A DNA stretch of 64,000 bases from Gordonia polyisoprenivorans NBRC 16320 = JCM 10675. Its GTDB lineage: Bacteria > Actinomycetota > Actinomycetes > Mycobacteriales > Mycobacteriaceae. The notes beneath the pieces were generated by a model, which saw only the letters and a list, made by a program, of their open reading frames with translations, searched no databases and had not been told where the DNA came from. A program made the translations under genes and the position numbers. Positions 2,061 through 51,071 of this stretch are shown piece by piece. The number at the start of each line of letters is the position of its first letter. Positions within the stretch are counted from its first letter, which is position 1. The DNA lies in NCBI RefSeq assembly GCF_000241325.1, contig NZ_BAEI01000010.1:1-64000 (forward strand), in the 5' to 3' direction.

Positions 2061-2158
2061 GAGGCATCCTCCGGCGGTTCGGGTGCTTTTGCAGGAATCC
2101 CTGCACTGCAGCATATTTCGGGCTAATTGGACAAGTCGGACAGATCGAATCAGCAGTG

Positions 2159-2177
2159 TTTGGTTATGCTAACCTTG
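2159..2177. promoter_or_regulatory. IdeR/DtxR-type iron box
   Basis: TTTGGTTATGCTAACCTTG matches 16 of 19 positions of the degenerate iron-box consensus (TWAGGTWAGSCTWACCTWA). A TATGCT -10-like hexamer lies inside it at 2165-2170, so a bound repressor would block initiation. The box ends 6 nt before the ATG chosen for the PepSY gene. Confidence 0.7.
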
Positions 2178-2183
2178 GCCGCC

Positions 2184-7323: not shown

Positions 7324-8217
7324 TCAACGCAGGGCGGCCACGACCTGATCGGCCATCGCCTGCTGGCCGCGCGCGTTGGCGTGCATGGACGGGAAGTTGA
7401 CCGCACCCAGCGTCGGCTCGACCCAGCGCCGATCACCCGCGCAGGCGTCGTGGCCTGCGGACGCCTTCGTCATGTCGACGAAGGTCGCATGCGTCGTCGC
7501 CGCGGCACGGCGCAAGGCGTCGTTGAGGGCGGCGAAGGCCTGGTGCAGGTATTCGGTGTCGGCGGGCGTGGTGAGCAGCGCAGCCGAGCAGACCGGGGAT
7601 CCCACGGCCGGGAAGATCTGCGGATATCCGACGAGCACGACACGGGCGTTCGGGGCGGCGCGGTCGATGTGGCGCAACGCATTCACCAGGTCGGGGTAGG
7701 TCGAGGTGTTGATCTTGTCGACCAACGAGGTGCCGAATGCATCGCGGCACGGGGCGGCCGACAACGGCGCGGACAGCCAGGCCTGCTGGCAGGCCGACGT
7801 CGAGTCGCTGAACAGCCCGTTGTTGTTCGCGCCGATCGTCAGGGTGATCAAGTGGGTCGCCGGTCCCAACGCGTTGATCTGCGGTCCCTGCCACCGGTAC
7901 TGCGACTGGGTCAGGTCGGCGGTCGTCGCGCCGGCGCAGCTGACGTCGGCGACATTCATCCCACGTCGCTTGGCGACGAGGTGGGAGTAGTTGACGCTCG
8001 AGTTCGAGCAGAAGGTGGCCGCACTCGTGGCCTGGGGGAACACCGATGCGCCTGCGCTGTAGCTGTCACCGAGGTTCACGTAGGGATATCCGTTGGCCGC
8101 CTGCGCCCCGCCGGCCTGAGCGAGTCCGCCGAGAAGGGCGACGGCGGTGGCCGCCGCGGTCAGCACGGTTCGGATGCCGAGGCGTCGGTGGGGGCTGCGG
8201 CCGTACGGCAATGGCAT
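7324..8217 (-). CDS. secreted SGNH/GDSL hydrolase (SEST-like lipase or esterase)
   Basis: 297 aa from ATG 8217; longer readings add non-conserved sequence. A Sec signal peptide spans residues 1-40 (hydrophobic core [15 protein letters not shown], cleavage AQA-AN). Catalytic Ser lies in GDSYSAG (S52), the oxyanion Asn in TIGANN, and His in PSMHAN near the C-terminus. The usual Asp three residues before the His is absent, as in the Ser-His dyad type of Streptomyces esterases. Paired cysteines (CSNSS/VSCAG, CQQ/PCRD, PVC/DAC) fit three disulfides in an exported enzyme. Likely acts on lipid or acyl esters outside the cell. Confidence 0.8.
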
Positions 8218-9023: not shown

Positions 9024-10607
9024 ATGACCGAAGAGTCGATAGCCGGCCGGAACCTCCTGGCCCCCACGTCGCGGGCATGTCCCTCGAGCCGACCGATCGA
9101 CGAACCCGAGAACGAGCCGCGCGAGGAGTGCGGCGTTTTTGGTGTCTGGGCTCCGGGTGAGGACGTCGCGAAGCTCTCGTACTACGGCCTCTACGCCCTG
9201 CAGCACCGTGGTCAGGAGGCCGCCGGGATCGCGGTCGGCGACGGCTCGCAGGTGCTGGTCTTCAAAGATCTCGGACTCGTCAGCCAGGTGTTCGACGAGC
9301 AGACGCTGGCATCGATGGTCGGCCACGTCGCGATCGGCCATTGCCGCTACTCGACGACCGGATCGACCACCTGGGAGAACTCCCAGCCGATCTTCCGCAC
9401 CACCGACGCCGGGACAGGGGTTGCGCTGGGCCACAACGGCAATCTGGTCAACACCGCGGAGCTCGCGGCGCGCGCGCGTGAGGTCGGCATCAAGAGCACC
9501 GCGGCGACCTCGGATTCCGACGTCGTCGGCGCGCTGCTGGCCCATGGTGCCGCCGACAGCAGCATCGAGCAGGCGGCCATGGAGTTGCTCCCCACCCTGC
9601 GCGGTGCGTTCTGCCTGACCTTCATGGATGAGCACACCTTGTACGCGGCGCGCGACCCGCACGGTGTCCGCCCGCTGTGCCTGGGCCGTCTCGACCGGGG
9701 ATGGGTCGTCGCCTCGGAGACCGCGGCCCTCGACATCGTCGGTGCGTCGTTCGTGCGTGACATCGAACCCGGTGAGCTGCTCGCCATCGACGCCGACGGC
9801 GTGCGCAGTTCCCGTTTCGCCGAGCCGACGCCACGCGGCTGCGTCTTCGAGTACGTCTATCTCGCCCGCCCGGACAGCGTCATCCACGGCCGTTCGGTGC
9901 ATTCCACGCGTGTCGACATCGGGCGGCGGCTGGCCCGCGAGTTCCCGGCGGTCGGCGACCTGGTGATCCCGGTACCCGAGTCGGGTACGCCTGCGGCCGT
10001 CGGGTTCGCCCAGGAGTCGGGGATTCCCTACGGGCAGGGGCTGATGAAGAACGCCTACGTCGGCCGTACCTTCATCCAGCCGTCGCAAACCATTCGTCAG
10101 CTCGGTATCCGTCTCAAGCTGAACCCGCTCAAAGAGGTCATCCGCGGCAAACGTCTTGTCGTCGTTGATGATTCGATTGTGCGCGGCAACACCCAACGCG
10201 CACTGATCCGGATGCTGCGGGAGGCGGGCGCGGCCGAGGTGCATGTCCGTATCGCGTCGAGCCCGGTGCGCTGGCCCTGTTTCTACGGCATCGATTTCGC
10301 CTCGCCCGCGGAACTGATCGCCAACGGCATGGAGTCCGAGGAGCACATGGTCGAGGGCGTCCGGCAGGCGATCGGCGCCGATTCGCTCGGCTACATCAGT
10401 ACCGAGGAGATGATCGCGGCGACGCATCAGGAGCCGTCGGCGCTGTGTGCGGCATGCTTCGACGGCAACTATCCGATCGAGCTGCCCAAGGAGTCGTCGC
10501 TGGGCAAGGCGGTGCTCGAGCAGATGCTCGCCAACGCCGCCGACGACGCCCGGATCGACCCATTGACCGCTCCCAATGACAACGTCAGCGCCGTGATGCG
10601 GCCCTGA
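9024..10607 (+). CDS. purF: amidophosphoribosyltransferase
   Basis: 527 aa from ATG 9024, chosen for the AGGGAG ribosome site. First committed step of purine synthesis: PRPP plus glutamine gives 5-phosphoribosylamine. A 35-residue propeptide precedes the Ntn nucleophile Cys36 in REECGVFGVW. The PRPP loop is VVVDDSIVRGNTQRA. Four cysteines in the places used for a [4Fe-4S] cluster in Bacillus-type PurF are present (CVFEY, PCFYG and the CAAC pair), so this is the iron-sulfur, self-processing type. The following purM starts 23 nt downstream, giving a purFM operon as in mycobacteria. Confidence 0.95.
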   Translation: MTEESIAGRNLLAPTSRACPSSRPIDEPENEPREECGVFGVWAPGEDVAKLSYYGLYALQHRGQEAAGIAVGDGSQVLVFKDLGLVSQVFDEQTLASMVGHVAIGHCRYSTTGSTTWENSQPIFRTTDAGTGVALGHNGNLVNTAELAARAREVGIKSTAATSDSDVVGALLAHGAADSSIEQAAMELLPTLRGAFCLTFMDEHTLYAARDPHGVRPLCLGRLDRGWVVASETAALDIVGASFVRDIEPGELLAIDADGVRSSRFAEPTPRGCVFEYVYLARPDSVIHGRSVHSTRVDIGRRLAREFPAVGDLVIPVPESGTPAAVGFAQESGIPYGQGLMKNAYVGRTFIQPSQTIRQLGIRLKLNPLKEVIRGKRLVVVDDSIVRGNTQRALIRMLREAGAAEVHVRIASSPVRWPCFYGIDFASPAELIANGMESEEHMVEGVRQAIGADSLGYISTEEMIAATHQEPSALCAACFDGNYPIELPKESSLGKAVLEQMLANAADDARIDPLTAPNDNVSAVMRP

Positions 10608-10630
10608 AGCACTCGGGTAGCGTGTCTCCC

Positions 10631-11752
10631 GTGAGCGAACAGGATGCGGCTGACGAGAAGTCCACTTCACCTTCCGCGGATCTTCCTTCTGGCGGCCTGT
10701 CGTACGCGGGGGCCGGGGTCGACATCGACGCCGGTGATCGCGCTGTCGAGCTGATCGGTCCGCACGCCAAACGCGCCACACGCCCGGAGGTCCTCGGCGG
10801 ACTCGGCGGATTCTCCGGACTCTTCGCCCTCAAGGGCAACTACCGCGAGCCGGTACTCGCCGCGGCGAGCGACGGCGTCGGTACCAAACTCGCCGTCGCG
10901 CAAGCGATCGGCAAACATGACACCGTCGGCCAGGACCTGGTGGCCATGTGCGTCGACGACCTCGTGGTGTGCGGCGCCGAACCGCTGTTCCTGCAGGACT
11001 ACATCGCCATCGGCAAGGTGGTCCCGGAGACGGTCGCCGAGATCGTCGCCGGCATCGCCGACGGCTGCGTTATCGCCGGCTGCGCACTGCTCGGTGGCGA
11101 GACCGCCGAACATCCCGGTCTCATGCGTGACGACCACTACGACCTCTCGGCGACCGCGGTGGGCGTCGTCGAGGCCGACCAGGTGCTCTCGCCGGATCGG
11201 GTCCGCGCCGGCGACTCGGTGATCGCACTGGGTTCCTCGGGCCTGCACTCCAACGGATATTCGCTGGCGCGCAAGGTCCTTCTCGACTGGGGCCACATGG
11301 ATCTCGGAGGCGATGTCGAGGAATTCGGTCGCACCCTCGGTGAGGAACTCCTCGAACCGACACGCATCTACGCACGCGATTGCCTCGCGCTGGCGGCCGA
11401 GGCCGACGTTCGGACGTTCGCCCACATCACCGGTGGGGGGCTCGCCGAGAACCTGGCCCGAGTCATCCCATCGGGGCTCGTGGCCGAACTCGAACGCAAT
11501 ACCTGGACTCCCGCACCGATTTTCGCCATGATCGCCCAACGCGGTCGTGTCGAGCAGGCCGAGATGGAACGCACCTTCAACATGGGTGTCGGCATGGTGG
11601 CCGTGGTGGCGCCCGAGGACACCGATCGTGCCCAGGCCGTCCTGACCGCGCGCCACGTCGACAACTGGGTGCTCGGCACCATCAAGCGCAATCCCGAGGC
11701 CAAGGGTGGATCGGGGCGCGTGAACCTCGTCGGCGATCACCCACGCTTCTGA
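10631..11752 (+). CDS. purM: phosphoribosylformylglycinamidine cyclo-ligase
   Basis: 373 aa from GTG 10631 (GTG 10622 is also possible). Closes the imidazole ring of AIR from FGAM with ATP. Seen: the N-terminal YAGAGVDIDAGD motif, the GVGTKLAVA glycine loop and the ATP-binding DDLVVCGAEPLF segment, all diagnostic of PurM. Directly behind purF. The gene is convergent with the DUF3073 gene; a large hairpin sits between them. Confidence 0.95.
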   Translation: MSEQDAADEKSTSPSADLPSGGLSYAGAGVDIDAGDRAVELIGPHAKRATRPEVLGGLGGFSGLFALKGNYREPVLAAASDGVGTKLAVAQAIGKHDTVGQDLVAMCVDDLVVCGAEPLFLQDYIAIGKVVPETVAEIVAGIADGCVIAGCALLGGETAEHPGLMRDDHYDLSATAVGVVEADQVLSPDRVRAGDSVIALGSSGLHSNGYSLARKVLLDWGHMDLGGDVEEFGRTLGEELLEPTRIYARDCLALAAEADVRTFAHITGGGLAENLARVIPSGLVAELERNTWTPAPIFAMIAQRGRVEQAEMERTFNMGVGMVAVVAPEDTDRAQAVLTARHVDNWVLGTIKRNPEAKGGSGRVNLVGDHPRF

Positions 11753-11797
11753 CAAGCGTTACTGCAAGTACCGCCCGGGGAGACGCTGAGAAACCAA

Positions 11798-11860
11798 CGA
11801 TCACCGGTCCGTTCGCCGAACGCACTCGAGAGTTGCGTTCGATGAACGAACCGGTGATCG
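11798..11860. terminator. large inverted repeat between convergent genes
   Basis: Arms 11798-11826 and 11831-11860 are complementary over about 29 bp with three substitutions and one inserted base, around a CGAG loop. It lies 45 nt after purM and 76 nt after the DUF3073 stop, so it can terminate both. No U-tract follows. Each arm itself contains a short palindrome (GTTCGnCGAAC type). Confidence 0.65.
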
Positions 11861-11936
11861 CCTGTGGTGGCGCTACCGTGACGACGACGCCGGGGCGGTC
11901 GGCGTCAAGGGGTGAGCGAAATGAGGGCGGTCGCGC

Positions 11937-12113
11937 TCAGGCGCGACGCCACTCGTCCTCTTCAAGCCACTCGTCCACCGGATCCGGGCGGTCTGCCGAA
12001 TCCGCCGAACCCGACAACTCGCGCTGCAAGCTGTCGAAGTCGGTGTGGGGAGTGGAGTACTTCAGCTGACGAGCAACCTTCGTCTGCTTTGCTTTAGCCC
12101 GGCCGCGGCCCAT
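11937..12113 (-). CDS. DUF3073 small basic protein (Rv0810c-like)
   Basis: 58 aa from ATG 12113. The opening MGRGRAKAKQTKVARQLKY is the hallmark of DUF3073, a short conserved actinobacterial protein with a basic N-terminus and acidic C-terminus (DEWLEEDEWRRA). Function unknown; the charge split suggests nucleic-acid or ribosome contact, which is speculation. Position after purM is as in M. tuberculosis. Confidence 0.85.
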   Translation of the reverse strand: MGRGRAKAKQTKVARQLKYSTPHTDFDSLQRELSGSADSADRPDPVDEWLEEDEWRRA

Positions 12114-12135
12114 ATGGGACCCCCTCGCACAATGA

Positions 12136-12165
12136 CGGGGCGGCCAAACTGGTGGCGGCCCCGTT
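12136..12165. terminator. hairpin upstream of DUF3073
   Basis: ACGGGGC (12136-12142) pairs with GCCCCGT (12159-12165), with further partial pairing inside. It lies between the MOSC stop and the DUF3073 start on the minus strand, so it may end the ygfZ-MOSC message or sit in the DUF3073 leader. Confidence 0.35.
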
Positions 12166-12303
12166 CTCTCGGTAGTTGAGTATCTCGTGGGCACCAGTTT
12201 AGCGCGCGTTTCGCGATTACGCGGATTGCCCCGGCAATGGCACGCCGACCAGCTGCGATGGGGGTTGCCCGGGGCCTTCCCGGTGTGCTCGGGCCGGTGG
12301 CCG

Positions 12304-27999: not shown

Positions 28000-28924
28000 G
28001 GTCGAGGTCCCCGAGGTTGACGTCATCGAGTCCCTGACGCCCGAGATGGCCGCCCACGCACACCGTCTCGTCGCGGCAGCGACCGCGGCCGACGGGGTGG
28101 CGCCACTGTCGGAACAGGCCGTCCTCGCCATCGACGGTGCCGGCGTGGGCGTTCGACACGTCATCAGCGCGGCCGGCTACGCCAACATCGTTGCCGGCCG
28201 TGACGACGAGCAGGCGATGATCGAGGCCGTCGTCGATCCTGAACAGCGTCGCAGGGGGCACGGCCGGGCACTCCTCGAAACCGCCTTCACGGCGGCGCGC
28301 GAACGTGCCGGCGCCGCCCCCACCTCGGACGCCGTGCGGGCCTGGGCGCACGGCGATCTCCCGGCCGCGCAGGCGTTGGCCGCATCGCTCGGGCTGCAGC
28401 GTCGGCGAGAGTTGTTGCAGTTGCGGCGAACCGGTGGAGCCGATGGCCTACCCGCCCTCGACGTCCCCGCCGACATCGAATTGCGCACCTACGCAGGGTC
28501 TTCGGATGACGCGGAGATCCTTCGCGTCAACAACGCCGCCTTCGCCTGGCACCCCGAGCAGGGTGGGTGGGCCCCCGAGCAGATCACCGAGCGGGTGGCA
28601 TCGGACTGGTTCGACCCGGCCGGGTTGTTCCTGGCGTTCGACGCCGCGGCCGGTGCCGGCGAATCAGATCGCCGACCGCTCTTGGGTTTTCACTGGACCA
28701 AGACGCAGGGGCCGGGGCTCGGCGAGGTCTACGTCGTCGGTGTCGATCCGGCCGCGCAGGGTCGCGGTCTCGGGCGGCTGCTGACGCTGGCGGGTCTGCA
28801 CTACTTTGCCGAGCGGGGTGTCGACGAGGTGCTGCTGTACGTGGAGGGTGACAACACCGCGGCGCTGCACACCTATGAGCGATTGGGCTTCACCCGCTAC
28901 GCCATCGACGTCGCCTATGGGTGA
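27989..28924 (+). CDS. mshD: mycothiol acetyltransferase
   Basis: 311 aa, GTG 27989. Two GNAT domains in tandem: the N-terminal one has [11 protein letters not shown] and the C-terminal one [15 protein letters not shown], the acetyl-CoA site. Catalyses the last step of mycothiol synthesis, acetylating the cysteine amine of Cys-GlcN-Ins. Starts 11 nt before the glnR stop and overlaps the EEP gene by 8 nt, so three genes form one coupled unit. It marks the organism as a mycothiol producer. Confidence 0.95.
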
Positions 28925-29972
28925 GCCGGCCCCGGCAACAGGTGGTCGTCGTTCGAGCTCTACCGGGGTGACCCGCTTCGGTGTGATTCGGCGGGGTGTG
29001 ATCCGGTGGAGTGTGATCCATTGGGTGACAACGATTGTCGGCGTGGTGCTGGTCGGTGCGGGCGCCGCCGGGGTGGCCGCCCATCATTCGCCGCTGACCA
29101 GCTCGACGGCCAGCCGGATCGCCGCGTTCACGCCGTTGCTGGTGTTGGCCTCGATCGTCGGGTTGGCCGCGCTGCTCGCCGCACGGCGCCGGCTCGGTGC
29201 GGTGCTCGCGACCTTCGTGGTGGCGGCCGGCGTGGTGACCCAGGTACCGCTCTACGTCGGCTCGGCGTCGGCGCGGGCCGATGATCTCGTGGTCATGCAG
29301 GCCAACATCTACCTCGGCGCCGCCGACACCGACGCGCTGGCCGACACGGTGCGCGCCGAGAAGGTCGACATTCTGACCGTCGTCGAACTCACCGACGCGG
29401 CGCTGACGCGCCTACGCTCCTCGACTCTGGCTGCGACGCTGGGGTATTCGTTCACCCACGCCCTGCCCGACGGCCGGGGGATCGGCATCTTCTCCCGGTT
29501 CCCCCTCGTCGAGGGTATGGTGCTGGAGCATTTCCGCCTGGGGAACGTGCGCGCGGTGGCCGACATCGACGGCCACGGCCGCCACGCCGTCTACGCACTG
29601 CATCCGTTGCCGCCGTGGCCGGAGCCGGCCTGGCGCTGGCAGTCCGAACTCTCCCGACTCTCGTCGATCCTGAACGCGGAGACACTCCCGACGATCGTCG
29701 GCGCCGACATGAACTCCACCTGGGATCATCGGCAGTTCCGAGAGTTGTTGCGCGGCCACGGTCCCGACGGATCACCGGGCCTGCTCGACGCCGCCGAACT
29801 CACCGGCGCGGGCGCCGCCGCCACGTACCCCGCGAACCGTCGGATACCACCGATGCTGGGGATCGATCACGTCATGACCCGCGGCGGGCCGGTACCGACG
29901 TCGCTGCGTACGGTGGACCTACCGGGATCCGATCACCGCGGCGTGGTGGCCACGGTGCGTCTGCGCCGATAG
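28917..29972 (+). CDS. membrane-anchored endonuclease/exonuclease/phosphatase family protein
   Basis: 351 aa from ATG 28917. Two or three N-terminal helices (about residues 40-60, 75-95, 103-120) precede an EEP domain: VMQANIYLG, VVELTDAAL, GRGIGIFSRFPL, VGADMNSTW, GIDHVM and GSDHRGVVA give the metal and catalytic Asn, Glu, Asp and His residues. The domain should face outside, hydrolysing a phosphoester; substrate unknown. Residues about 22-36 are a five-residue repeat (GVIRR, GVIRW, SVIHW) encoded by 15-bp tandem repeats. It overlaps mshD. It ends 7 nt from the convergent LLM gene. Confidence 0.75.
   Translation: MGEPAPATGGRRSSSTGVTRFGVIRRGVIRWSVIHWVTTIVGVVLVGAGAAGVAAHHSPLTSSTASRIAAFTPLLVLASIVGLAALLAARRRLGAVLATFVVAAGVVTQVPLYVGSASARADDLVVMQANIYLGAADTDALADTVRAEKVDILTVVELTDAALTRLRSSTLAATLGYSFTHALPDGRGIGIFSRFPLVEGMVLEHFRLGNVRAVADIDGHGRHAVYALHPLPPWPEPAWRWQSELSRLSSILNAETLPTIVGADMNSTWDHRQFRELLRGHGPDGSPGLLDAAELTGAGAAATYPANRRIPPMLGIDHVMTRGGPVPTSLRTVDLPGSDHRGVVATVRLRR
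28980..29024 (+). repeat. 15-bp tandem repeat in coding sequence
   Basis: Three units (28980-28994, 28995-29009, 29010-29024) of GGTGTGATYCGGYGG type encode GVIRR-GVIRW-SVIHW just before the first membrane helix of the EEP protein. Confidence 0.7.
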
Positions 29973-29979
29973 CGGGCCG

Positions 29980-31110
29980 TCAGGCCACCGCGGGGGTGGC
30001 GGGCGCACCGAGCAGCGGCAGCAGGAGATCGGCGGCGATCTCGGCCTCCGCGGCCAGCGGCCAGCCCGACAGAATCCAGATGTCGATACCGGCCTGTGCG
30101 GCAACGGTGTTCATCGCGCGGGCCACGTTCTCGGCGCTGCCGACGAAGTACGTTCCGGTGCCCTTGCCGGCGATGTCGAAGGGAGGTTCGGCGGCGGTCC
30201 AGGTGGTCAGCCCGGCGGCCATGCTCGGGGCGAACTCGAGTAGGTCGCGCCCGGGGATGCGCCCGGCACGCAGGGCGTCGATACGGCCCTGCACCTGCGG
30301 GTCGGGACTGGTGATCTCGTCGAGCCCGGGGAAGCCGAAGCTGCGCAGGTTGCGGTCGGCCGTCGCGAGCACCGTCTCCGGGCGTGTGCGGGACAGCTGA
30401 TCGGAGAACCGCTCCCACGCCTGCTCGTCGGTCTCGCGCACGATGACGCTGGCGAGCACGCCGAAGCGCAGCGACCGGCCGCTGCCTGCGGCGGCGTCAC
30501 GGACCCGGGTGAACAGTGTCGACAGGTCCGCAGGTGCCGACATGAACGACAGGTACACGTCGAGGACCTCGGCCGCGTGGGCAATGCCCTCCGGTGATGC
30601 GCCGGTTCCCCAGACCTCGATGCCGCCGGGCTGTCGGGGGCCGGGGATCGCGGGCTTGTATCGCGGTCCGTAGGAGAAGAATTCGCCGTCGTAGGCGTCG
30701 GTGGCGTCGGCGTAGAGACGTTTGACCTGGGTCCAGTATTCGGCCGAGAGCCGGTACCGCTGCGCCTTCGAGGCGTACTGGCCGTACCGGGCGAGGACGG
30801 CGTCGGCACCGTTGACCTGATTGAAGATCAGGCGCCCGCCCGAGTACTGGTCGAAGACCTGTGCCTCCTCGGCGAGCATCGCCGGTGGCTTCACGCCCGG
30901 GTACACCGGGATCAGAAAGCGCAGATTCTCGGTCTCGGGGACGAGCGCGATCGGTTCGCGCGCGGTGGTCAGTGCCCCGCCGTAGCCGAACCGGTCGAGG
31001 GTGCGGGCCTGATGCCGGATCACCTCGAAGGTGGGTTCGGTCCGCAGCGACGGTTCCCACGGGACGTCACCGTCGGTCGGATTGATGTACCAGAAGACCT
31101 CGGGCGCCAT
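29980..31110 (-). CDS. LLM-class flavin-dependent monooxygenase (SsuD-like)
   Basis: 376 aa from ATG 31110. Bacterial-luciferase-like fold: PEVFWYINPTDGDVPWE, RFGYGGALTTA, the phosphate-binding SGGRLIFNQVNG and the GGIEVWGTGASPEG segment are characteristic of FMNH2-dependent alkanesulfonate monooxygenases. SsuD frees sulfite from alkanesulfonates, but no transporter or flavin reductase genes are nearby, so another substrate (C-S, C-N or aldehyde) is equally possible. The ATG is 6 nt from a divergent iron box shared with nat, so iron-responsive expression is likely. Confidence 0.8.
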   Translation of the reverse strand: MAPEVFWYINPTDGDVPWEPSLRTEPTFEVIRHQARTLDRFGYGGALTTAREPIALVPETENLRFLIPVYPGVKPPAMLAEEAQVFDQYSGGRLIFNQVNGADAVLARYGQYASKAQRYRLSAEYWTQVKRLYADATDAYDGEFFSYGPRYKPAIPGPRQPGGIEVWGTGASPEGIAHAAEVLDVYLSFMSAPADLSTLFTRVRDAAAGSGRSLRFGVLASVIVRETDEQAWERFSDQLSRTRPETVLATADRNLRSFGFPGLDEITSPDPQVQGRIDALRAGRIPGRDLLEFAPSMAAGLTTWTAAEPPFDIAGKGTGTYFVGSAENVARAMNTVAAQAGIDIWILSGWPLAAEAEIAADLLLPLLGAPATPAVA

Positions 31111-31116
31111 GGAAGA

Positions 31117-31135
31117 TGAGGTTAGCCTATCCTGT
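31117..31135. promoter_or_regulatory. IdeR/DtxR-type iron box in divergent promoter
   Basis: TGAGGTTAGCCTATCCTGT matches 15 of 19 positions of the iron-box consensus. It is 6 bp from the LLM start (31110) and 4 bp from the NAT start (31140). TATCCT (31128-31133) on plus and TAACCT on minus would place both transcript starts at or next to the start codons. Confidence 0.6.
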
Positions 31136-31139
31136 TTTC

Positions 31140-31964
31140 GTGGACGCAACCGACACCTCGCCGATCAGCGCGGGGGCGCCGCTTCGGCCGGCCGCGTATC
31201 TCTCGAGGATCGGCGTGACCGATGTCGCCGCCGACCCGGCGAACCTCGTCGTCGCGATCGCCACCGCGCAACATCGACGAATCCCGTTCGAGAATCTCGG
31301 CATTCACCTCGGGACACCCGTCGAGGTGGACCCGCACGTCATCGTCGACAGGCTCGTCGACGGCCGTCGGGGCGGGATCTGCTACGAACTCAACGGGCTG
31401 CTGCTGCTCGCGTTGCGTGCGTTGGGTATCGATGCGGACGTCGTCGGCGCAAGGGTGGAGTCGGCCGCCGGTCTCGGCCCGCCGCTCGGGCACATGGCCG
31501 TGCTGGCGCAGGTCGGCGGAGAGCCGTGGCTCGTCGACGTCGGATTCGGTGGCGAGATGGTCTGCCGGCCCATCGACCTGGCCTCGGTCGCCGAACGCCG
31601 TATCGAATGCGAGTCGGCGGCCTACCTTCTGGAGCCGTACACGCGGGAACTCGCCGAGTTCGAGGCGATGGCCTGGTGGCACAGCACCTCGCCGCGGTCA
31701 CGATTCACCGGCTCGCTCATCGCCACCCTGCCCGTCGACGGCGGGCGGGTGAGCATCACCGGCGGCGCCGATGACTATCGGCTGATCGTCACCGACGCGC
31801 GGGGAACGCGCACCGAATCCGACCTCGATCACCCTGCGGCGCTCGACGTGTGCCGCCGGGTGCTCGGCCTCGATGTCGACGAGTTACCTTCGCTACCACT
31901 CGGTTCCGCGCGCGACCGGTCTCACTCCGGGCGCCACGGGGTGGGGAACGGCAACCCCAGATAG
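31140..31964 (+). CDS. nat: arylamine N-acetyltransferase
   Basis: 274 aa from GTG 31140; the ATG at 31116 would put the iron box inside the gene. The Cys-His-Asp triad is complete: RGGICYE (about C81), LGHMAV (about H118) and LVDVGFGG (about D133). RIPFENL is also typical. NATs move acetyl or other acyl groups from CoA to arylamines and hydrazines, and relatives close amide bonds in ansamycin synthesis. It faces the LLM gene across an iron box. Its last 43 nt overlap the 3' end of pobA on the other strand. Confidence 0.9.
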   Translation: MDATDTSPISAGAPLRPAAYLSRIGVTDVAADPANLVVAIATAQHRRIPFENLGIHLGTPVEVDPHVIVDRLVDGRRGGICYELNGLLLLALRALGIDADVVGARVESAAGLGPPLGHMAVLAQVGGEPWLVDVGFGGEMVCRPIDLASVAERRIECESAAYLLEPYTRELAEFEAMAWWHSTSPRSRFTGSLIATLPVDGGRVSITGGADDYRLIVTDARGTRTESDLDHPAALDVCRRVLGLDVDELPSLPLGSARDRSHSGRHGVGNGNPR

Positions 31965-33124
31965 ACCTCGCCGAGGGCCTGCTGCTCGGCACGCGAGGCG
32001 ACCCACCGGGTCAGCTTCGCGTGCCGCAATCCCCAGTCGAACGGGTCGTCGGTGAAGCGGTGCAGCACCGACGTCAGCGTCCAGGAGAAGTTCTGCGCCT
32101 GCCAGATCCGCGGCAGCGCGGTGTCGGTGTAGCTCTCGAGGCGGGTGCGGTCACCGTCGCGGTAGAACACCCCGAGGGCATGGGACAGCACGCTCGCGTC
32201 CGACACGGCAAGGTTGAGCCCTTTGGCGCCGGTCGGCGGCACGATGTGGGCGGCGTCGCCGAGCAAGAACAGCGAACCGTGCTGCATGCGTTCGGTGACC
32301 ACGCTGCGCAGCGGTGCGAGGCTGCGGTCGAAGATCTCTCCGGTCTGCAGTTCCGGGTGGTCGTCGGATGCACTGCGCCTGCGTAATTCGGCCCAGATGC
32401 GTTCGTGGGGCCAGTCGGCGAGATCGGTGTCGGCCGGCACCTGCAGGTACTGGCGCGTGATGTGTGTGCCGCGCATGCTGTGGACCGACAGTCCGTCGGG
32501 GTGGGCGCAGTACATGCCTTCCTCGGTCACCGGGGTGGTTCGGGCCAGGATACCCAGCCATGCAAAGGGATACACGCGTTCGATGGTGCGCACCGACGAC
32601 GGCAGCCGGGTCCGGGAGACCCCGTGGAAGCCGTCGCAGCCGGCGACGAAGTCGGCGGTCAGGCGATGAGTGCGGCCGTCGACGGTGTAGGTGACCTCGG
32701 TGGTGGGGCCGTCCGTCGGGCCGATCTCGACGTCGGCGGCGTCGAACACCAGCGGCAACCCGGCCGCCGTGCGTGCGTCGATGAGGTCGGCGACGATCTC
32801 GGCCTGTCCGTAGACGAAGGCGTTGCGCCCGGTCAGTCGGTGGAAGTCGAGGTGGTGTGTGCGGCGGTCGTAGCGCAGGTAGAAACCGTTGTGGCGCAGC
32901 GCTTGTACGTGTAGCCGGTCGGCCACGCCGAGTTCGGTCAGGGTGTCGACGGTGGTCTGTTCGATCACGCCGGCGCGAACCCGGGCGCGCACGTGCGCCT
33001 CGTCTCGCGCCTCGAGGACGACGGCGTCGATACCCTGACGGTGCAACATCATCGCCAGCGACAAACCCGCCGGGCCGGCACCGATGATCGCGACCTGACA
33101 ACGTATGAGGGGACTCCTGGGCAT
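31922..33124 (-). CDS. pobA: 4-hydroxybenzoate 3-monooxygenase
   Basis: 400 aa from ATG 33124 (33187 also open). FAD motifs GAGPAGLSLAMML, VAGCDGFHGVSR and FLLGDAAHIVPPTGAKG are those of class A flavoprotein hydroxylases, and RIWQAQNFSWTLTSVLHRF is specific to PobA. Converts 4-hydroxybenzoate to protocatechuate (3,4-dihydroxybenzoate) with NAD(P)H and oxygen. No pca ring-cleavage genes are in the window. Its start lies 40 nt after the stop of an iron-box-controlled acyltransferase gene, so it is probably in that operon. The start region is an 18-bp tandem duplication (PRSPLM/PRSPLI). Confidence 0.85.
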   Translation of the reverse strand: MPRSPLIRCQVAIIGAGPAGLSLAMMLHRQGIDAVVLEARDEAHVRARVRAGVIEQTTVDTLTELGVADRLHVQALRHNGFYLRYDRRTHHLDFHRLTGRNAFVYGQAEIVADLIDARTAAGLPLVFDAADVEIGPTDGPTTEVTYTVDGRTHRLTADFVAGCDGFHGVSRTRLPSSVRTIERVYPFAWLGILARTTPVTEEGMYCAHPDGLSVHSMRGTHITRQYLQVPADTDLADWPHERIWAELRRRSASDDHPELQTGEIFDRSLAPLRSVVTERMQHGSLFLLGDAAHIVPPTGAKGLNLAVSDASVLSHALGVFYRDGDRTRLESYTDTALPRIWQAQNFSWTLTSVLHRFTDDPFDWGLRHAKLTRWVASRAEQQALGEVYLGLPFPTPWRPE

Positions 33125-33140
33125 GAGGGGACTCCTGGGG
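33105..33140. repeat. 18-bp tandem duplication at the pobA start
   Basis: 33105-33122 and 33123-33140 are identical except the last base (ATGAGGGGACTCCTGGGS). On the minus strand each unit supplies a CCC-AGG-AGT run next to the ATG, so it adds or removes six codons or moves the ribosome site. Confidence 0.8.
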
Positions 33141-33164
33141 TGTGGGTGCCCGGCCGGCACGCGC

Positions 33165-34517
33165 TCAGGTGAGCGCGACCAGGGCACGGAGACGATCGGG
33201 CAGGGCGGCGAGTGCGTCGGCGACCGCGGCCGAGGACACCGCGTCGTCGAAATAGGCTGCGGCCACCGACATCCCGCCTCCGACGAGTGCGGTCGTCACG
33301 GTGAGGCCCTGCGGCGTCGGGGGATCGGCGACCGAGAACACCCGCGCCCGCTCGTCGGCCAGCCACGTCCAGCGGTGATCGCGGCCCGGCACGGTACCCA
33401 CACTCGAATGCAGCAGCGGCACCGGCACATCGGTGAGTACCGCGGGCGGTGGGTCGGCTGTGCGCCGGGAGGACGCGAGCGTCTTGACCGAGGTGATCGC
33501 CAGGTTGGCGATGGGCCGCCCCATCCGTGCCGACGCCGTCAGGGCGCGCTGGAGCTCGACCGGATCGCTGCCGGGCGGAACCGCAAATGCCAGTCCGGCA
33601 GAGAAATTCGCGAGCGTGTTCCGTGCGCGGGGGAGGTACACGCGGGCGTCGAAGGGGGCGGTGATCGTCGGATGTAGATCGACACCGGCCTCGGTGAGCG
33701 CATCGACGAGCGCGACGGTGGTCAGTGCGTACATCCCCACCCCGGGACAGTCACGGTCCCGGGCGGCGCGGACCTCGGCGACCGTGGCCGCGGGGACGTG
33801 GGCGAGGGTGGCGCGTGGACGGCGGCCGGTTGCGGCGTCGACACCGCCGACGGTGCCGGAAGGACCGGGTACCGACGCCGCTTCGCCGGTGGTCCGGACT
33901 CCTCCGGGCTCGGTCGGCGCCCGACGTAGCAGCCGCGCCAGCGCGACCACGCGGCGTGGGTCGGCGCAGACCGCGGCCGAGGCCAGCGCCAGCGGCGGTG
34001 TGCGGTGGCCGAATCGGCGCCACGTCCGGCGATCGTGTGGATCGGTGGACCCGAGGATCACCGAGACGACGACGTTGAGCAGGGTGGCGTCCCCGAGACC
34101 GTGATCGAAGTCGATGGCGATGTACTCGTGGCCCAGGACGACGCGCAGGGGCCGATCCGAGCTGCTGCGGACCTCGTCGAGCAGGCGCAGCGGCTCGTCG
34201 TCGCCGCCGCTCGCCCGCACCTCGCAACCACCGGCGCGGGGATCGTGGGTCCAGCGTGCACGTGTCGGAGAGGGGTGCAGGCCCACCCGCGTGAACGGGC
34301 CGGCCGCGGCCATCGCACGCACTCGCTCGCGAACCTGAGCCACGGACGGGACCTCGACGGGTCCCACGACCAACGCCGAGCGCCGGCGGCTGTGGTGGCG
34401 GTCGAGGGCCGCAGTGCGAATGGATCCCTGGGTGATGGTCCCTCGACGGACGGGCCCGCGTGGCATCGCGACCCGAGATGTCGGGAGTGCGGGATCGGGG
34501 GTTCGCTGCGTCGCCAT
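33165..34517 (-). CDS. condensation/PapA-like CoA-dependent acyltransferase
   Basis: 450 aa. The centre holds IDFDHGLGDATLL (about residue 140), an HxxxD active-site motif of the condensation and PapA/WS-DGAT superfamily, with Ala where Gly normally follows. A later DVPVPLLHSSVG and GRDHRWTW region fits the second half of the chloramphenicol-acetyltransferase-like fold. These enzymes make esters or amides of natural products and cell-wall lipids. The product is unknown. It lies behind a strong iron half-palindrome and ahead of pobA, suggesting it acylates an iron-regulated small molecule. The N-terminal 40 residues are basic and probably disordered. Confidence 0.6.
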   Translation of the reverse strand: MATQRTPDPALPTSRVAMPRGPVRRGTITQGSIRTAALDRHHSRRRSALVVGPVEVPSVAQVRERVRAMAAAGPFTRVGLHPSPTRARWTHDPRAGGCEVRASGGDDEPLRLLDEVRSSSDRPLRVVLGHEYIAIDFDHGLGDATLLNVVVSVILGSTDPHDRRTWRRFGHRTPPLALASAAVCADPRRVVALARLLRRAPTEPGGVRTTGEAASVPGPSGTVGGVDAATGRRPRATLAHVPAATVAEVRAARDRDCPGVGMYALTTVALVDALTEAGVDLHPTITAPFDARVYLPRARNTLANFSAGLAFAVPPGSDPVELQRALTASARMGRPIANLAITSVKTLASSRRTADPPPAVLTDVPVPLLHSSVGTVPGRDHRWTWLADERARVFSVADPPTPQGLTVTTALVGGGMSVAAAYFDDAVSSAAVADALAALPDRLRALVALT

Positions 34518-34532
34518 GAGAATCGTGACAAC

Positions 34533-34551
34533 TTTACCAAGCCTTACCTAA
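34533..34551. promoter_or_regulatory. IdeR/DtxR-type iron box
   Basis: On the minus strand TTAGGTAAGGCTTGGTAAA matches 15 of 19 consensus positions; the first 13 are perfect and the second half is weak. It ends 15 nt before the ATG of the acyltransferase at 34517. Confidence 0.55.
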
Positions 34552-34916
34552 ATTGAGTGCGCCGGGATGGGCTTTGCGCTGGTGCGCACCGGACGGCAAC
34601 CCGGCATTCACCGCGTGCTCACCCGGGTGGCGGCCGCGGGCCGCGGGCCACGCGTGGCACGTGGCCCGCAGTGTGGGCGTGTCGAGCGCCACAGCGATCC
34701 GAAATGGGACGTATCGGTCCAGCTCCGAGGGGTGATTGTCCGATCTGCGCATCCGGTCGGAACGCAAGGTGGCCGGAATCGACATGTCCGAGTCGTCCAA
34801 TTCATCTTCCGTTCACCTTTCGTCGGGGGACCGTCCATCACTGCCCCATAAAGTCAGCTCGACCGGGCAGGGTCGCATGGCCGGACTGCCGTGTTTTGAT
34901 GCTGGAGGAACCAGAA
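34552..34916. other. 365-bp intergenic region before pstS
   Basis: No convincing gene. It contains a 10-bp-stem hairpin at 34643-34669 (GCGGGCCACG/CGTGGCCCGC around the palindrome CCACGCGTGG), the PHO box at 34800-34821 and a CATAAAGT -10-like stretch near 34850. Confidence 0.6.
34800..34821 (+). promoter_or_regulatory. PHO box upstream of pstS
   Basis: Two adjoining 11-bp direct repeats, ATTCATCTTCC and GTTCACCTTTC, match the GTTCAyC-type repeats bound by PhoP/RegX3-family phosphate regulators. It lies about 95 bp before the pstS start. Confidence 0.7.
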
Positions 34917-45612: not shown

Positions 45613-45777
45613 GTGTCCACCCTACGGTGACGGGAACCGAATCGGTCGAATTTCGCATTCTCGCGCAATGTGTGGGGATGACCGCCGACGGGGAGCAGAA
45701 TGGTTTCGGGGGCCGAAAGAGGGCCGCGTCGCCGAAGCACTCACGGGTGCTCCGGCCGAGACAAGTGGAGGTCCGCA

Positions 45778-47181
45778 GTGCAGCGGTTGAGTGGTTTGGA
45801 CGCGTCGTTCCTGTATCTGGAGACGCGCTCGCAGTTGATGCATGTCGTGGGGATCATGGAACTCGATGCGAGCACCATTCCCGGTGGTTACAGCTTCACC
45901 CGAATGCGTACCCAGCTCAATGCGCGGGTTGCCGCGATGCCCATGTTGCGACGCAAACTGGAGAACTCCGCGCTCAACATCGACCACCCGGTGTGGGTCG
46001 AGGACGACCACTTCGACATCGATCGGCACGTGCACCGCGTCGCGTTGCCCTCGCCCGCGGGCAAGAAGGAACTCAACGAGCTCTGCGGACATCTGGCCGG
46101 GCAGGCCCTCGACCGGGGCAAGCCGCTGTGGGAGCTGTGGATCATCGAGGGCAGCGCCGACGGCAAGATCTGTGCGTTCCTGCGGATGCACCACGCCAGC
46201 GTCGACGGGGTCACCACCGCCGAGGTGCTCGGCCAGCTCTGCAGCCTGACCCCCGACGAACCCGACGTCGACCCGGACAAGGTCGCCGAGACCGCCGGTG
46301 GACCCAACCGCACCGGCATGGTGATCTCCGGCGCCCTCAACTACTTCGTGCAGCGACCGATCGCGATGGCCAAACTGCTTCCGCAAACCGCCGGCGTACC
46401 GATCGAGTGGTTTCGCCGGTCGCGGTCGCGTACCGGGATGCCCGCCCCCTTCGCCGCGCCCCGCACCGTGTTCAACGGGCCGATCTCGCCGCACCGCAGC
46501 ATCGCGACCACCCAACTCTCCCTCGACGACGTCAAGCGGGTGAAGAACCGCTTCGGGGTGAAGGTCAACGACGTGGTGCTCGCGATGGTCGGCGGTGCGC
46601 TGCGCGAATATCTCTCCCAGCACGGGGACCTACCGGGCTCGCCGTTGGTGGCGATGGTCCCGGTGTCGGTCCACGATGCCGACGAGCGCGATCTGGTGGT
46701 CAACGGCACCAACAAGGTCACCGGCATGTTCACCGAATTGCCGTCGGACGTCGCCGATCCGGTCGAACGGCTCGAACGTGCCGGGGAACTCGCCCGCCGC
46801 GCCAAGGAACATCACGCCGACATCGACGCGAACATCCTGCGTGCGTGGGCACAGTTCGCCCCCGGCACCACGCTGTCGACGCTGATGAAGTTCTACGGTG
46901 ACCGCAAGCTGTCGATGAATCATCCGCCCATCTACAACGTCACGGTCTCCAACGTCGCCGGCCCCGACTTCCCGATGTACTTCTGCGGGGCGAAGGTCGC
47001 CGCCATCTATCCGCTCGGTCCGATCTTTCACGGCCTGGCCCTCAACATCACCGTCTTCTCCGTCGACGGGCACCTCAACGTCGGCATCCTGACCTGCCCC
47101 GACGAGGTGCCCGACGTCGAGGTGATCGCCGAGGCCTTCGATCACCAACTCAAGGCGCTGATCGAGGCGTGTGACGACTGA
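45778..47181 (+). CDS. wax ester synthase/acyl-CoA:diacylglycerol acyltransferase
   Basis: 467 aa from GTG 45778, chosen for the GTGGAGG ribosome site. The HHxxxDG active-site motif is intact (MHHASVDG, about residue 138), as are the opening RLSGLDASFLYLE and the NVTVSNVAGP segment of the family. Makes triacylglycerol or wax esters from acyl-CoA. Typical of lipid-storing Gordonia, Rhodococcus and mycobacteria. Probably monocistronic; nadE starts 40 nt later. Confidence 0.9.
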   Translation: MQRLSGLDASFLYLETRSQLMHVVGIMELDASTIPGGYSFTRMRTQLNARVAAMPMLRRKLENSALNIDHPVWVEDDHFDIDRHVHRVALPSPAGKKELNELCGHLAGQALDRGKPLWELWIIEGSADGKICAFLRMHHASVDGVTTAEVLGQLCSLTPDEPDVDPDKVAETAGGPNRTGMVISGALNYFVQRPIAMAKLLPQTAGVPIEWFRRSRSRTGMPAPFAAPRTVFNGPISPHRSIATTQLSLDDVKRVKNRFGVKVNDVVLAMVGGALREYLSQHGDLPGSPLVAMVPVSVHDADERDLVVNGTNKVTGMFTELPSDVADPVERLERAGELARRAKEHHADIDANILRAWAQFAPGTTLSTLMKFYGDRKLSMNHPPIYNVTVSNVAGPDFPMYFCGAKVAAIYPLGPIFHGLALNITVFSVDGHLNVGILTCPDEVPDVEVIAEAFDHQLKALIEACDD

Positions 47182-49402: not shown

Positions 49403-50677
49403 TCAGGCTGCGGTGTTGTCGAGTCGCATGGTCCGTCGGTGATAGGACGGTATCGGTCGTCGTTTCGGATCGATGCTGGCGGGCGGGATCAGCCAGGGGT
49501 GTCGGTCGAATCCCATGACGATGTCCCAGCCGTGGTGGTGGACATCGTCATGGCAACTGGTGCACAGGAGGCAGCCGTTGTCGAGGTCGGTGGGACCACC
49601 ATCGGCCCAGTGGTGCGCGTGGTGTGCTTGGCAGCGTCCGGCGTGGGCACCGCATTTGATGCACCCACGATCCCGGACCAGCAACGCTTTGCGTTGCCCG
49701 GGTGTGAAGAAGCGTTTCGCCTCCCCAACACTGAGCGGCACACCGTTCGGATCGAGCATGATTTTCGTGATGGTGGTGTCACACGACAACAGTTTGGCGG
49801 TGGCTTCGGTGATCGCACCCATATTCTGCAGGTCCCCGCCGAGTGCCGGGTTGTCCGCTGACCAGGTCCACAACAGGCCGTTGGTCGGTTTCGCCGAGAA
49901 CGTGGTGTCCGCCAAACCTTGTGCCGCCAACTCCACGATCGTCTCGAATGCGGCCGCGCAGATCTGTTCGGGTGTCCGCGGATCCGGCGACCCGTCGGGT
50001 TGAGGCTTGGGCGCCGACAAGGTTTCCATCAGAGTTCTGGTTTTCTCCCCGGCGATGATGTCGAGGTTCGCTGAGATTTCCAGCCGGCCGTCGTCGGTGA
50101 TGCGGTCGGTGTAGGAGTTGATCGTCTTGTCTTCGGCGGCAGGTAACCCGCCAGGCGTCTCCGCGGCGAGCTCGTTACCCAGCTGTCGCGCGTAGAGGTT
50201 GATCTCGGCGGGGGTGAAACCGGCGAAGTAGTGCGACAGCAGTTTCCGCAGGTATTCGCACCGTTGGACGGTGTCGAGGGGTTCGGGGCATCGGGTGTCG
50301 ATGTGGCCCAGCCCGCGGACGATGGCGTCGGTGTGTTCGGACGAGATGGACCCGTCCGCTGCATGCGCCAACAACAGATCGATGTCGCCGGTGGCAGCAA
50401 TCCGCACGTACCGACCTGCGACGGCAGGTGCGAAACCCATGCTGATCAACAACTCCCGCAGTCGGGTGGTCTTGTGGTCGGCCACTCCCAGGCGATCCAT
50501 CTCACCGGTGAGGGTGGTGGCGTGATGATCGATCAGGTTCCGCAACAACAGGACTTGTTTCATCGCACCGAAGGCCTGCGGTCCGGTCATCTCCGGATTC
50601 CATTGCAGGTCGCTGAGTTGGGTGACAATCCCGGCGAAAACTGCCTCGGCATCAAGAGCTTCGGTGGTGTCGATCAT
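49403..50677 (-). CDS. DUF222 / HNH endonuclease (13E12 family), second copy
   Basis: 424 aa from ATG 50677, chosen for the GGGGAGG ribosome site. DUF222 region then an HNH zinc module at about 337-380: CIKCGAHAGRC, HHAHHWADGGPTD and CHDDVHHHGW. Shorter than the copy at 4010 and of another subfamily (metal site CxxC-H-CxxC-type). Only degenerate SOS half-sites (TCGAAC and GTTCGA, 20 nt apart) are seen upstream. Confidence 0.85.
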   Translation of the reverse strand: MIDTTEALDAEAVFAGIVTQLSDLQWNPEMTGPQAFGAMKQVLLLRNLIDHHATTLTGEMDRLGVADHKTTRLRELLISMGFAPAVAGRYVRIAATGDIDLLLAHAADGSISSEHTDAIVRGLGHIDTRCPEPLDTVQRCEYLRKLLSHYFAGFTPAEINLYARQLGNELAAETPGGLPAAEDKTINSYTDRITDDGRLEISANLDIIAGEKTRTLMETLSAPKPQPDGSPDPRTPEQICAAAFETIVELAAQGLADTTFSAKPTNGLLWTWSADNPALGGDLQNMGAITEATAKLLSCDTTITKIMLDPNGVPLSVGEAKRFFTPGQRKALLVRDRGCIKCGAHAGRCQAHHAHHWADGGPTDLDNGCLLCTSCHDDVHHHGWDIVMGFDRHPWLIPPASIDPKRRPIPSYHRRTMRLDNTAA

Positions 50678-51071
50678 GGGCCCCTCCCCAGTGGCTGATC
50701 GGTGTGATGACTCCATCCTACTCGAACATAGGGATCAAGGCAAGGGTGTTCGATGGTTGTGGGGAGGCAAAGGTGCTTGTGGACAACGGGTTTCGGTGGT
50801 GGGCTGGCGGCAGTTTTCTGTCGGTGGGGTGTGGTAGGCGGGCGGCTTTCGCTGTGAGCCGGATCGATGTGGTTGGGAGGCTTGTTGTCTCGCCGGGTCT
50901 CGAGGCTCGCCGCACGCGGCTCGCACCTCGACCATCGGGGGGAAGGCCAGGCGGCTGGGGCGGTGTACACCCTCGACCATCGGGGGGGAAGGCCAGGCGG
51001 CTGGCGGCTGGGGCGGTGTACACCCTCGACCATCGGAGGGAAGGGGGCGGGGTGCGCGTCGCAGGAGGTCG
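50678..51071. other. 394-bp gene-free region with repeats
   Basis: The left part is a likely HNH promoter. The middle holds a hairpin-forming element (about 50897-50930, GAGGCTCGCCGC...GCGGCTCG) and then the 45-53 bp repeat described separately. No credible gene. Confidence 0.6.
50926..51042. repeat. 45-53 bp direct repeat
   Basis: Copy 1 at 50926-50970 and copy 2 at 50971-51022 share CCTCGACCATCGGGGGG, AAGGCCAGGCGGCTGG and GGCGGTGTACAC; copy 2 has one extra G and a duplicated GCGGCTGG. A partial third copy begins at 51023. Confidence 0.75.

Follow-up and report, generated by a model that had tools for sequence, protein, structure and literature searches.

Four adjoining genes of Gordonia polyisoprenivorans at positions 29980..34551 of a 64,000-nucleotide stretch of DNA (the window) combine a PobA-like hydroxylase with three other enzymes and two iron boxes, which raises the question of whether this island degrades 4-hydroxybenzoate or builds a product under the control of iron. 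We consider the chances about even that it forms half of a biosynthetic system under iron regulation, split in this genome, whose product, an oxidised aminophenol acid, would serve in a surface glycan or as a secreted chelator. All four gene calls hold, and the identities that an earlier, sequence-only reading had given them (PobA, NAT, LLM monooxygenase and condensation-like acyltransferase) all stand, the last through a predicted condensation fold. The LLM flavin monooxygenase (29980..31110, reverse strand) matches PF00296 and is SsuD-like in sequence and in alignment with SsuD; it is separated by a 29-bp divergent gap, which contains the first DtxR/IdeR-type iron box (31117..31135), from a gene of the arylamine N-acetyltransferase family (NAT; 31140..31964, forward strand; PF00797, E 1.1e-38). 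The PobA-like FAD hydroxylase with a remodelled substrate pocket (31922..33187, reverse strand) was assigned from its NF006091 and TIGR02360 scores, its residues and a tree, and its start is likelier to be the ATG at 33124 than the GTG at 33187. It forms a unit with the leading gene ACT (33165..34517, reverse strand), a putative HxxxD acyltransferase of the condensation/PapA/BAHD fold. The second box (34533..34551) lies in the divergent gap between ACT and pstS, its centre being 25 bp upstream of the start codon of ACT.

Both boxes are thus exactly where the sequence-only reading had placed them, and its proposal of iron-type control at both island promoters is supported at the level of sequence by their presence, their conservation and a simulation of chance. 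Each window box has four mismatches to the 19-bp palindrome that we take to be the DtxR/IdeR consensus; the window holds three such sites, against a mean of 0.01 and a maximum of 1 over 300 simulated windows, which is beyond chance. Loss of the boxes in related genomes had been named as evidence against iron control; instead, the same promoters are boxed in relatives. The core of the LLM/NAT box is kept in G225 and G211, and G201 and G162 have it at the promoter of NAT-ALDO. Across 41 sequences we found 94 sites, compared with 3 in reversed controls, and across 41 further loci, whose DNA is partly common to the first set, 53 compared with 4. The boxes stand before leading genes (GT2a 21/22, GT2c 17/19, ALDO 20/25, NAT 10/12, PobA 20/28), and inner and flanking genes are unboxed (A-T-TE 0/33, WZX 0/34, GTC 0/16, EEP 0/13, MshD 0/10). 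The genome has five PF02742 matches above cut-off for a DtxR-family repressor, and three of its nine strictest boxes lie at isochorismatase/AMP-ligase, chorismate-binding-enzyme and N-hydroxylase/NRPS genes. Against the proposed system, another three of the nine (C40, C58 and C86) lie at genes with no obvious tie to iron, and only 6 of the 25 LLM genes are themselves preceded by a box. No box was found at three glycan/ACT loci of other genera (L102, L104, L105), nor at any of six Mycobacterium and Streptomyces LLM loci (L192-L196, L198), which also have no synthase within 10 kb, the synthase of L194 (genome G099) being about 38 kb from LLM. The box type resembles that of the DtxR/IdeR regulons of rhequibactin/heterobactin-type siderophore loci, and siderophore-type genes with such boxes are present in the same genome; unlike those loci, the boxed genes here comprise an aromatic-acid module and a polysaccharide-type cluster.

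The remainder of this module lies outside the window, on contig C60, where a GriI-like aldolase and a GriH-like synthase of the DHQS-II type stand side by side within an iron-boxed polysaccharide cluster with glycosyltransferases, flippase-like proteins and an A-T-TE enzyme. The two halves form one cluster in several Gordonia and Rhodococcus, and in Rhodococcus this is seen as a contiguous single cluster. The view of the island as an iron-controlled, biosynthetic system survives, but not that of its four genes as the whole, since the aldolase, synthase, glycan genes and A-T-TE enzyme are on C60. The synthase (PF01959), LLM and island-type PobA occur in the identical 16 of 59 genus genomes, and synthase and LLM in the identical 24 of 401 family genomes (the LLM tally omits a second, weaker match in G225, with 43% identity and one in-frame TAA). 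The ordinary AroB (PF01761) is present in all 24 synthase carriers searched; the DHQS-II enzyme is thus not required for the shikimate pathway, and we rejected that role for it. Aldolase and synthase are a pair common to the Streptomyces 3,4-AHBA clusters (grixazone gri, bagremycin/ferroverdin bag/fev, ahbamycins ahb), whose pathway is described in PMC10179220 and PMC6692506. The NCBIfam models match the Gordonia pair below their curated exception-model cut-offs (synthase with BagC/FevH, 407 bits against 750; aldolase with BagB/FevI, 241 bits). From these families we infer that the C60 pair makes 3-amino-4-hydroxybenzoate, homology to PF01959 being no proof of product. Unlike the Streptomyces clusters, the Gordonia set adds PobA, an SsuD-like LLM, NAT, glycosyltransferases, flippase-like proteins and DtxR-type boxes.

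This partnership bears on the substrate of the island PobA, which scores 507 bits with NF006091 and, for the window protein alone, 452.3 bits with TIGR02360, below the equivalog cut-off of 538.7. It shares the FAD hydroxylase family and the carboxylate and 4-OH contacts with p-hydroxybenzoate hydroxylases, including the protocatechuate 5-hydroxylase XaPobA; the retained residues are S212, R214, Y222, Y201 and P293, with roles as given in PMC10770758. In the pocket, all 24 island PobAs that were read carry F75, G199, M200 and M213, compared with I, L, I and Q in all 13 paralogues read, two incomplete copies (L138 in G222 and L150, the second copy of G211) being left out of the count. Relative to the usual PobA the window protein carries L199G, I200M, L210V, Q213M and N384V, and position 75 is V in P. 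aeruginosa, I in the Gordonia paralogues and F here, such that the usual catabolic pocket (L199, L210, V or I at 75) is replaced by G, V and F. PMC10770758 links positions 75, 199 and 210, among others, to the acceptance of a ring substituted at position 3, albeit with different residues from those seen here. Because PobA co-occurs with the synthase and its pocket is altered, a 3-substituted 4-hydroxybenzoate is its likelier substrate than 4-hydroxybenzoate itself, and both observations speak against the earlier suggestion that the product is protocatechuate. Ordinary catabolism, in which PobA would supply protocatechuate for growth and the boxes would have arisen by chance, is consistent with the retained contacts, but we regard it as highly improbable. 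The genome has a separate PobA with 41-42% identity and the usual pocket beside an IclR regulator on contig C83, and the remodelled pocket, a distribution identical to that of the synthase and the conserved iron boxes also argue against it. A scan of the intradiol families found no ring-cleavage gene in the window, in agreement with the absence of pca genes noted by the sequence-only reading, or on contig C103. A catabolic PobA was set aside on these grounds, and the biosynthetic role put forward in that reading is favored.

The acyltransferase and the A-T-TE enzyme are less closely bound to the aromatic genes. ACT matches no Pfam or NCBIfam model; its predicted structure has a condensation fold by Foldseek comparison to the PDB, with HGLGD as its HxxxD motif, and it has 11-16% identity to PapA5, condensation-domain, BAHD/HCT and AzeD proteins of this fold, from which it differs in lying beside glycosyltransferase genes in relatives. 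We had expected ACT to track the aromatic genes; instead it tracks the polysaccharide genes: 10 of the 43 genus genomes that lack the synthase have ACT, and 2 of the 16 that possess the synthase do not. Among the 25 carriers, NAT was found in 11 at the loci read and not in the other 14. A-T-TE matches occur in all 16 genus genomes with the synthase and in 14 of the 43 without it. The adenylation code, taken from full enzymes at 28 of 31 loci (L094, L254 and L175 were dropped), failed as a marker of genomes with the aromatic genes, as two of its three types are common to genomes with and without the synthase; the L252 enzyme, from a genome without it, falls between two types. The A-T-TE enzyme thus need not activate the aromatic acid. 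Alignment A1 omits L043, which has an internal stop, and the ends of L044-L046 were trimmed at their stop.

Our data suggest a model in which the C60 aldolase and synthase would provide 3-amino-4-hydroxybenzoate, which the island PobA may hydroxylate beside the 4-OH group on the way to an aminocatechol acid; LLM would contribute a further oxidation, and in carriers that have NAT this enzyme would acylate the amine. More speculatively, the A-T-TE enzyme and ACT might move the aromatic or another acyl group onto an extracellular glycan, itself the product of the co-regulated glycosyltransferases and flippase-like proteins. With ample iron, a DtxR/IdeR regulator would silence these genes, and iron starvation would yield a chelating, redox-active aromatic coat or a chelator. 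Of 25 carriers, 22 (from Gordonia, Rhodococcus and Mycobacterium) have the synthase, aldolase or PobA at one locus with polysaccharide-type glycosyltransferases; no polysaccharide cluster was detected beside the aromatic genes in G221, G162 and G230, the last having one distant GT2-like gene only. With perhaps one chance in four, the module instead makes a free, secreted chelator or pigment akin to grixazone, bagremycin or ferroverdin, and the polysaccharide genes are merely co-regulated neighbors. G221 and G162, which carry the module without such genes beside it, and the loose linkage of ACT and synthase would fit this, as would the binding of iron by nitroso forms of 3,4-AHBA esters in ferroverdin, described in PMC6692506; the 22 shared loci weigh against it, and according to the same paper the nitroso form arises under iron-rich conditions, contrary to what the boxes predict. 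Moreover, among the annotated neighbors of the module small-molecule exporters were noticed in two cases only: G230 has one of the ABC type, and Rhodococcus globerulus has an MFS-like protein next to an NRPS.

That siderophore-type NRPS, which adjoins the R. globerulus cluster by visual inspection, leads to a less probable alternative, in which a non-ribosomal peptide siderophore encoded nearby would incorporate the aromatic acid as a building block or cap. In G230 (Gordonia sihwensis) the module has an A-T-TE enzyme on one side and a large NRPS on the other, both preceded by boxes, and C60 bears NRPS-like genes with an isochorismatase and an AMP-ligase. However, no multi-module NRPS was seen in the Gordonia clusters between pstS and mshD (about 20 kb read) or in the island (29980-34551), and G117 and G008 have NRPS/A-T-TE loci but not the module. 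One candidate for such a siderophore is heterobactin, which has a benzoxazole form; a literature search, with most subscription journals outside its coverage, found no confirmation that the acid caps it. Returning to the surface-glycan reading, we put forward tentatively, as a possibility below even odds, a previously undescribed iron-starvation system of mycolic-acid bacteria. Its exopolysaccharide coat would bear aminocatechol acids and act as a surface-bound polymeric iron scavenger, the aromatic unit being made by a new five-enzyme route (GriI-like, GriH-like, pocket-altered PobA, repurposed LLM and NAT) and attached either by ACT, as an orphan acyltransferase of the condensation fold, or by the A-T-TE enzyme. 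Within the same coverage, the search recognised no iron-boxed aminohydroxybenzoate/polysaccharide cluster and returned nothing on topic for polysaccharide siderophores. If true, this would mean that a single regulon of Gordonia, Rhodococcus and Mycobacterium connects aminophenol chemistry and surface polysaccharide with the control by iron. It would also suggest that enzymes of the PobA and SsuD types catalyze reactions not yet ascribed to them, and give a concrete reason to search the capsules of actinobacteria for chelators attached by covalent bonds.

The same reading carries a warning, as annotation of the island PobA as 4-hydroxybenzoate degradation or of LLM as sulfonate use would mislead. 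NAT has the Cys, His and Asp that we take to be the catalytic triad of its family, in addition to the family match, and is an accessory part of the system. LLM scores 125.7 bits to the SsuD alkanesulfonate monooxygenase structure 1nqk over nearly its full length, yet only 156.8 bits with TIGR03565 against a cut-off of 518.2. The SsuD alignment shows that C54, R226, H228, R297 and Y331, which we assume to be the catalytic residues of SsuD, are not conserved, and LLM was rejected as an alkanesulfonate monooxygenase because these are missing. Near a relative of LLM in Streptomyces violaceus (55%) there are, as read by eye, another LLM gene and genes for a transporter-like lipoprotein and a protein resembling cysteine synthase, neighbors that hint at a sulfur-related ancestry of this LLM family.

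Our analysis points to a probable new variant of 3-amino-4-hydroxybenzoate (3,4-AHBA)-type biosynthesis, which is linked to iron control and surface-glycan genes; no description of such a 3,4-AHBA, iron and glycan system was found in the literature searched, the coverage of which was partial. The island at 29980..34551 encodes a flavin monooxygenase (LLM), an NAT, a PobA and a condensation-fold acyltransferase (ACT). The sequence-only reading proposed that, under iron control, it may build or modify a catechol-type iron chelator, with PobA making protocatechuate, rather than degrade 4-hydroxybenzoate. The underlying observation of iron boxes at this gene set is confirmed; iron control and a non-degradative role are supported, and the conversion of 4-hydroxybenzoate to protocatechuate is not.

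The island boxes, at 31117-31135 (between LLM and NAT) and 34533-34551 (between ACT and pstS), each have four mismatches to TWAGGTWAGSCTWACCTWA, a DtxR/IdeR-type consensus, and each is thus weak taken singly. With the site at 2159 they make three such sites in the window; 300 order-1 simulated windows averaged 0.01 and never held more than 1. This genome (G000), G225, G211, G201 and G162 share the NAT-side core AGGATAGGCTAACCT without any difference, even though in the last two the divergent partner is an aldolase and not LLM; the ACT core TTAGGTAAGGCTTG is common to G000, G225 and G211. A stricter scan of G000, allowing up to three mismatches to TWAGGTTAGSCTAACCTWA, returned nine sites, with none in a backward control; both island boxes are absent from this list. 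Of the nine, one is found by isochorismatase and AMP-ligase genes, a second by a chorismate-binding-enzyme gene adjoining an ornithine/lysine N-hydroxylase, and a third by an N-hydroxylase adjoining a large NRPS; two fall within the contig C60 cluster, one is the window site 2159, and the genes at the other three (on C40, C58 and C86) have no obvious link to iron. We consider the list a fair positive control. Five DtxR-family matches are present in G000. The site at 2159-2177 is stronger (three mismatches) than the two island boxes and directly precedes a gene named by eye as a PepSY-like membrane protein (ORF 2127-3524), whose true start is probably downstream of the box.

Across the window and 40 fetched loci we found 94 boxes, compared with 3 in reversed sequence. 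Counted per occurrence in fetched loci, some of which overlap and which are not independent genomes, boxes concentrate at promoter-leading genes: the glycosyltransferase genes GT2a (21/22) and GT2c (17/19), the aldolase ALDO (20/25), NAT (10/12), PobA (20/28), epimerase (5/5), ACT (9/22) and LLM (6/25). Inner and flanking genes are boxless, namely A-T-TE, an adenylation-carrier-thioesterase enzyme (0/33), the flippase-like WZX (0/34), the large membrane protein GTC (0/16), CORE2 (0/11), GH16 (0/8), EEP (0/13) and MshD (0/10). The GriH-like synthase DHQS2 has a box in 1/26 occurrences, GT2b in 3/22 and pstS, which has a common gap with ACT, in 6/15. No box was found at the glycan/ACT loci L102, L104 and L105, at the LLM locus L084, or at L192-L196 and L198, six LLM loci from Mycobacterium and Streptomyces.

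DHQS2, LLM (E <= 1e-40) and island-type PobA (58-100% identity, other PobA matches being 46% or less) each occur in 16 of 59 genus genomes, and the 16 are identical. Among 401 family genomes from 31 genera, DHQS2 and LLM (E <= 1e-80) occur in the same 24, from five genera. The combined sets comprise 25 carriers of the aromatic genes, and the nine from other genera all have island-type PobA. The synthase-LLM pairing persists despite distance in G000, G225, G211, G204, G226 and G238, and in two Mycobacterium-type genomes (G322 and G099) the two genes are about 33 and 38 kb apart. An LLM scan of another collection gave five extra loci, L192, L193, L195 and L196 from Mycobacterium and L198 from Streptomyces, with no synthase within their 10-kb flanks. 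Ordinary AroB is present in 24/24 carriers searched (G226 left out), and NAT was seen in 11/25. ACT is a looser partner than DHQS2, LLM and PobA, being found in 14/16 genus genomes with DHQS2 (including a remnant with stops in G162) and 10/43 without; A-T-TE matches occur in 16/16 and 14/43, respectively. Among the hosts with names are Gordonia aichiensis, otitidis, sputi, tangerina, desulfuricans, amarae and sihwensis, Rhodococcus globerulus, rhodnii and triatomae, and several Mycobacterium.

In G000 the partner genes lie on C60, which holds ALDO, DHQS2, A-T-TE, flippase-like proteins, a Branch-family transferase, GH16, GTC and GT2 genes. The box at C60:8734, between ALDO and GT2a, is the best of the nine strict sites (two mismatches), and that at C60:16506 precedes GT2c. 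In several Gordonia (e.g. G201, G216 and G241) a cluster begins at the pstS end of the interval that the island occupies here and runs ACT, GT2c, GH16, GT2b, GTC, GT2a, PobA, NAT in some, ALDO, DHQS2, LLM and WZX; Rhodococcus relatives have the whole set as one cluster, A-T-TE included. By family, ALDO is assigned as a DeoC/LacD-type aldolase and DHQS2 as a 3-dehydroquinate synthase II. The NCBIfam scores of DHQS2 are 473 bits (a DHQS-II subfamily model) and 407 bits (the 3,4-AHBA synthase model BagC/FevH, below its cut-off of 750); those of ALDO are 278 bits (an ADH-synthase-type model) and 241 bits (BagB/FevI, below its cut-off of 500). GriI and GriH convert aspartate semialdehyde and dihydroxyacetone phosphate to 3,4-AHBA (PMC10179220). 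The putative label "polysaccharide" rests on the glycosyltransferase, flippase-like and GH16 families; WZX scored slightly under the Pfam cut-off for Polysacc_synt, and GTC had no family match. In the Gordonia loci read, the pstS-mshD interval (about 28900-34900 in the window) is a hot spot, where pstS and mshD/EEP enclose a glycan cluster, the aromatic module, the two together or only remnants, and the two Mycobacterium-type genomes also have glycan genes near EEP. One cluster of G322 (L236) has two DHQS-II genes, at 7381 and 14691. On C60 (L108, L109, L110), boxed catechol-siderophore-type and N-hydroxylase genes lie about 49 and 80 kb from the polysaccharide and aromatic genes.

Island PobA retains H72, Y201, S212, R214, Y222, P293 and Y385 (P. 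aeruginosa numbering, via alignment), described as carboxylate, 4-OH and proton-network residues (PMC10770758). Its pocket is otherwise altered: all 24 island PobAs read (15 Gordonia and 9 others; G222 left out) have F75, G199, M200 and M213, with V384 in 23 and V210 in 21. The 13 paralogues read all have I75, L199, I200, L210 and Q213; in P. aeruginosa the residues are V75, L199, I200, L210, Q213 and N384. A homology model of another PobA places L199 and L210 no more than 4 A from 4-aminobenzoate (PMC10466732), and PMC10770758 ties positions 75, 199 and 210 to acceptance of a 3-substituted ring, with residues that differ from the island's. In a tree of 30 sequences, two of them fragments, island PobAs group in a single clade (support 0.999) that adjoins a 46% copy of G211 and is separate from the roughly 40% paralogues. 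One of the latter lies in G000 at C83:67277 alongside an IclR regulator, with no box in the stretch fetched around it.

Computation establishes the boxes, partnership, cluster structure, ACT fold and altered PobA pocket. From the enzyme families, we propose that 3,4-AHBA is made. PobA would hydroxylate it beside the 4-OH to give an aminocatechol acid; LLM may oxidize this further and NAT may acylate it, and ACT or A-T-TE might conceivably modify the glycan with an acyl or aryl unit. The LLM protein is alignable with SsuD and does not have the catalytic residues of that enzyme, so that it is probably a flavin monooxygenase that has been repurposed. In Streptomyces violaceus (L198, about 9836-12259), a 55% LLM relative adjoins, by eye, another LLM gene and one for a cysteine-synthase-like protein, a neighbourhood suggesting that this LLM family arose in a sulfur-related setting. 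A-T-TE consists of an AMP-binding, a carrier and a thioesterase domain; Gly occupies code position 235, which normally contacts the alpha-amino group, in 28/28 read, so an alpha-amino acid is an unlikely substrate. Stand-alone A-T-TE enzymes (L106, L108, L168-L173 and others) can be sorted by code into roughly three types, GGDHxC[RL]N, G[AG]DH[ST]CW and GAN, all of which have this Gly.

Several observations run against an iron-regulated module that supplies an oxidized aminophenol acid to a surface glycan or chelator. Two of the three A-T-TE code types recur whether or not a genome has the aromatic genes. In G221 and G162 we detected no polysaccharide cluster next to the aromatic genes, and in G230 the neighbours of these genes are a boxed NRPS, an A-T-TE enzyme and an ABC exporter; the aromatic acid may thus have more than one use. 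Ferroverdin, a studied 3,4-AHBA chelator, is produced in its iron-binding form in abundant rather than scarce iron (PMC6692506).

A recurring Gordonia locus (L245, L247, L253, L251 and L086) combines NRPS modules, A-T-TE and a family-2-like glycosyltransferase, to which some copies add an ABC exporter and iron boxes; it occurs with and without the aromatic genes and possibly encodes an undescribed glycosylated siderophore. Elsewhere in the window, a wax-ester-synthase/DGAT-like acyltransferase (45700-47181, by eye) lies 11 kb from ACT and is probably unrelated to it, and the ORFs at 4010-5689 and 49403-50716 both encode what, by eye, are HNH-type 13E12-like repeat proteins.
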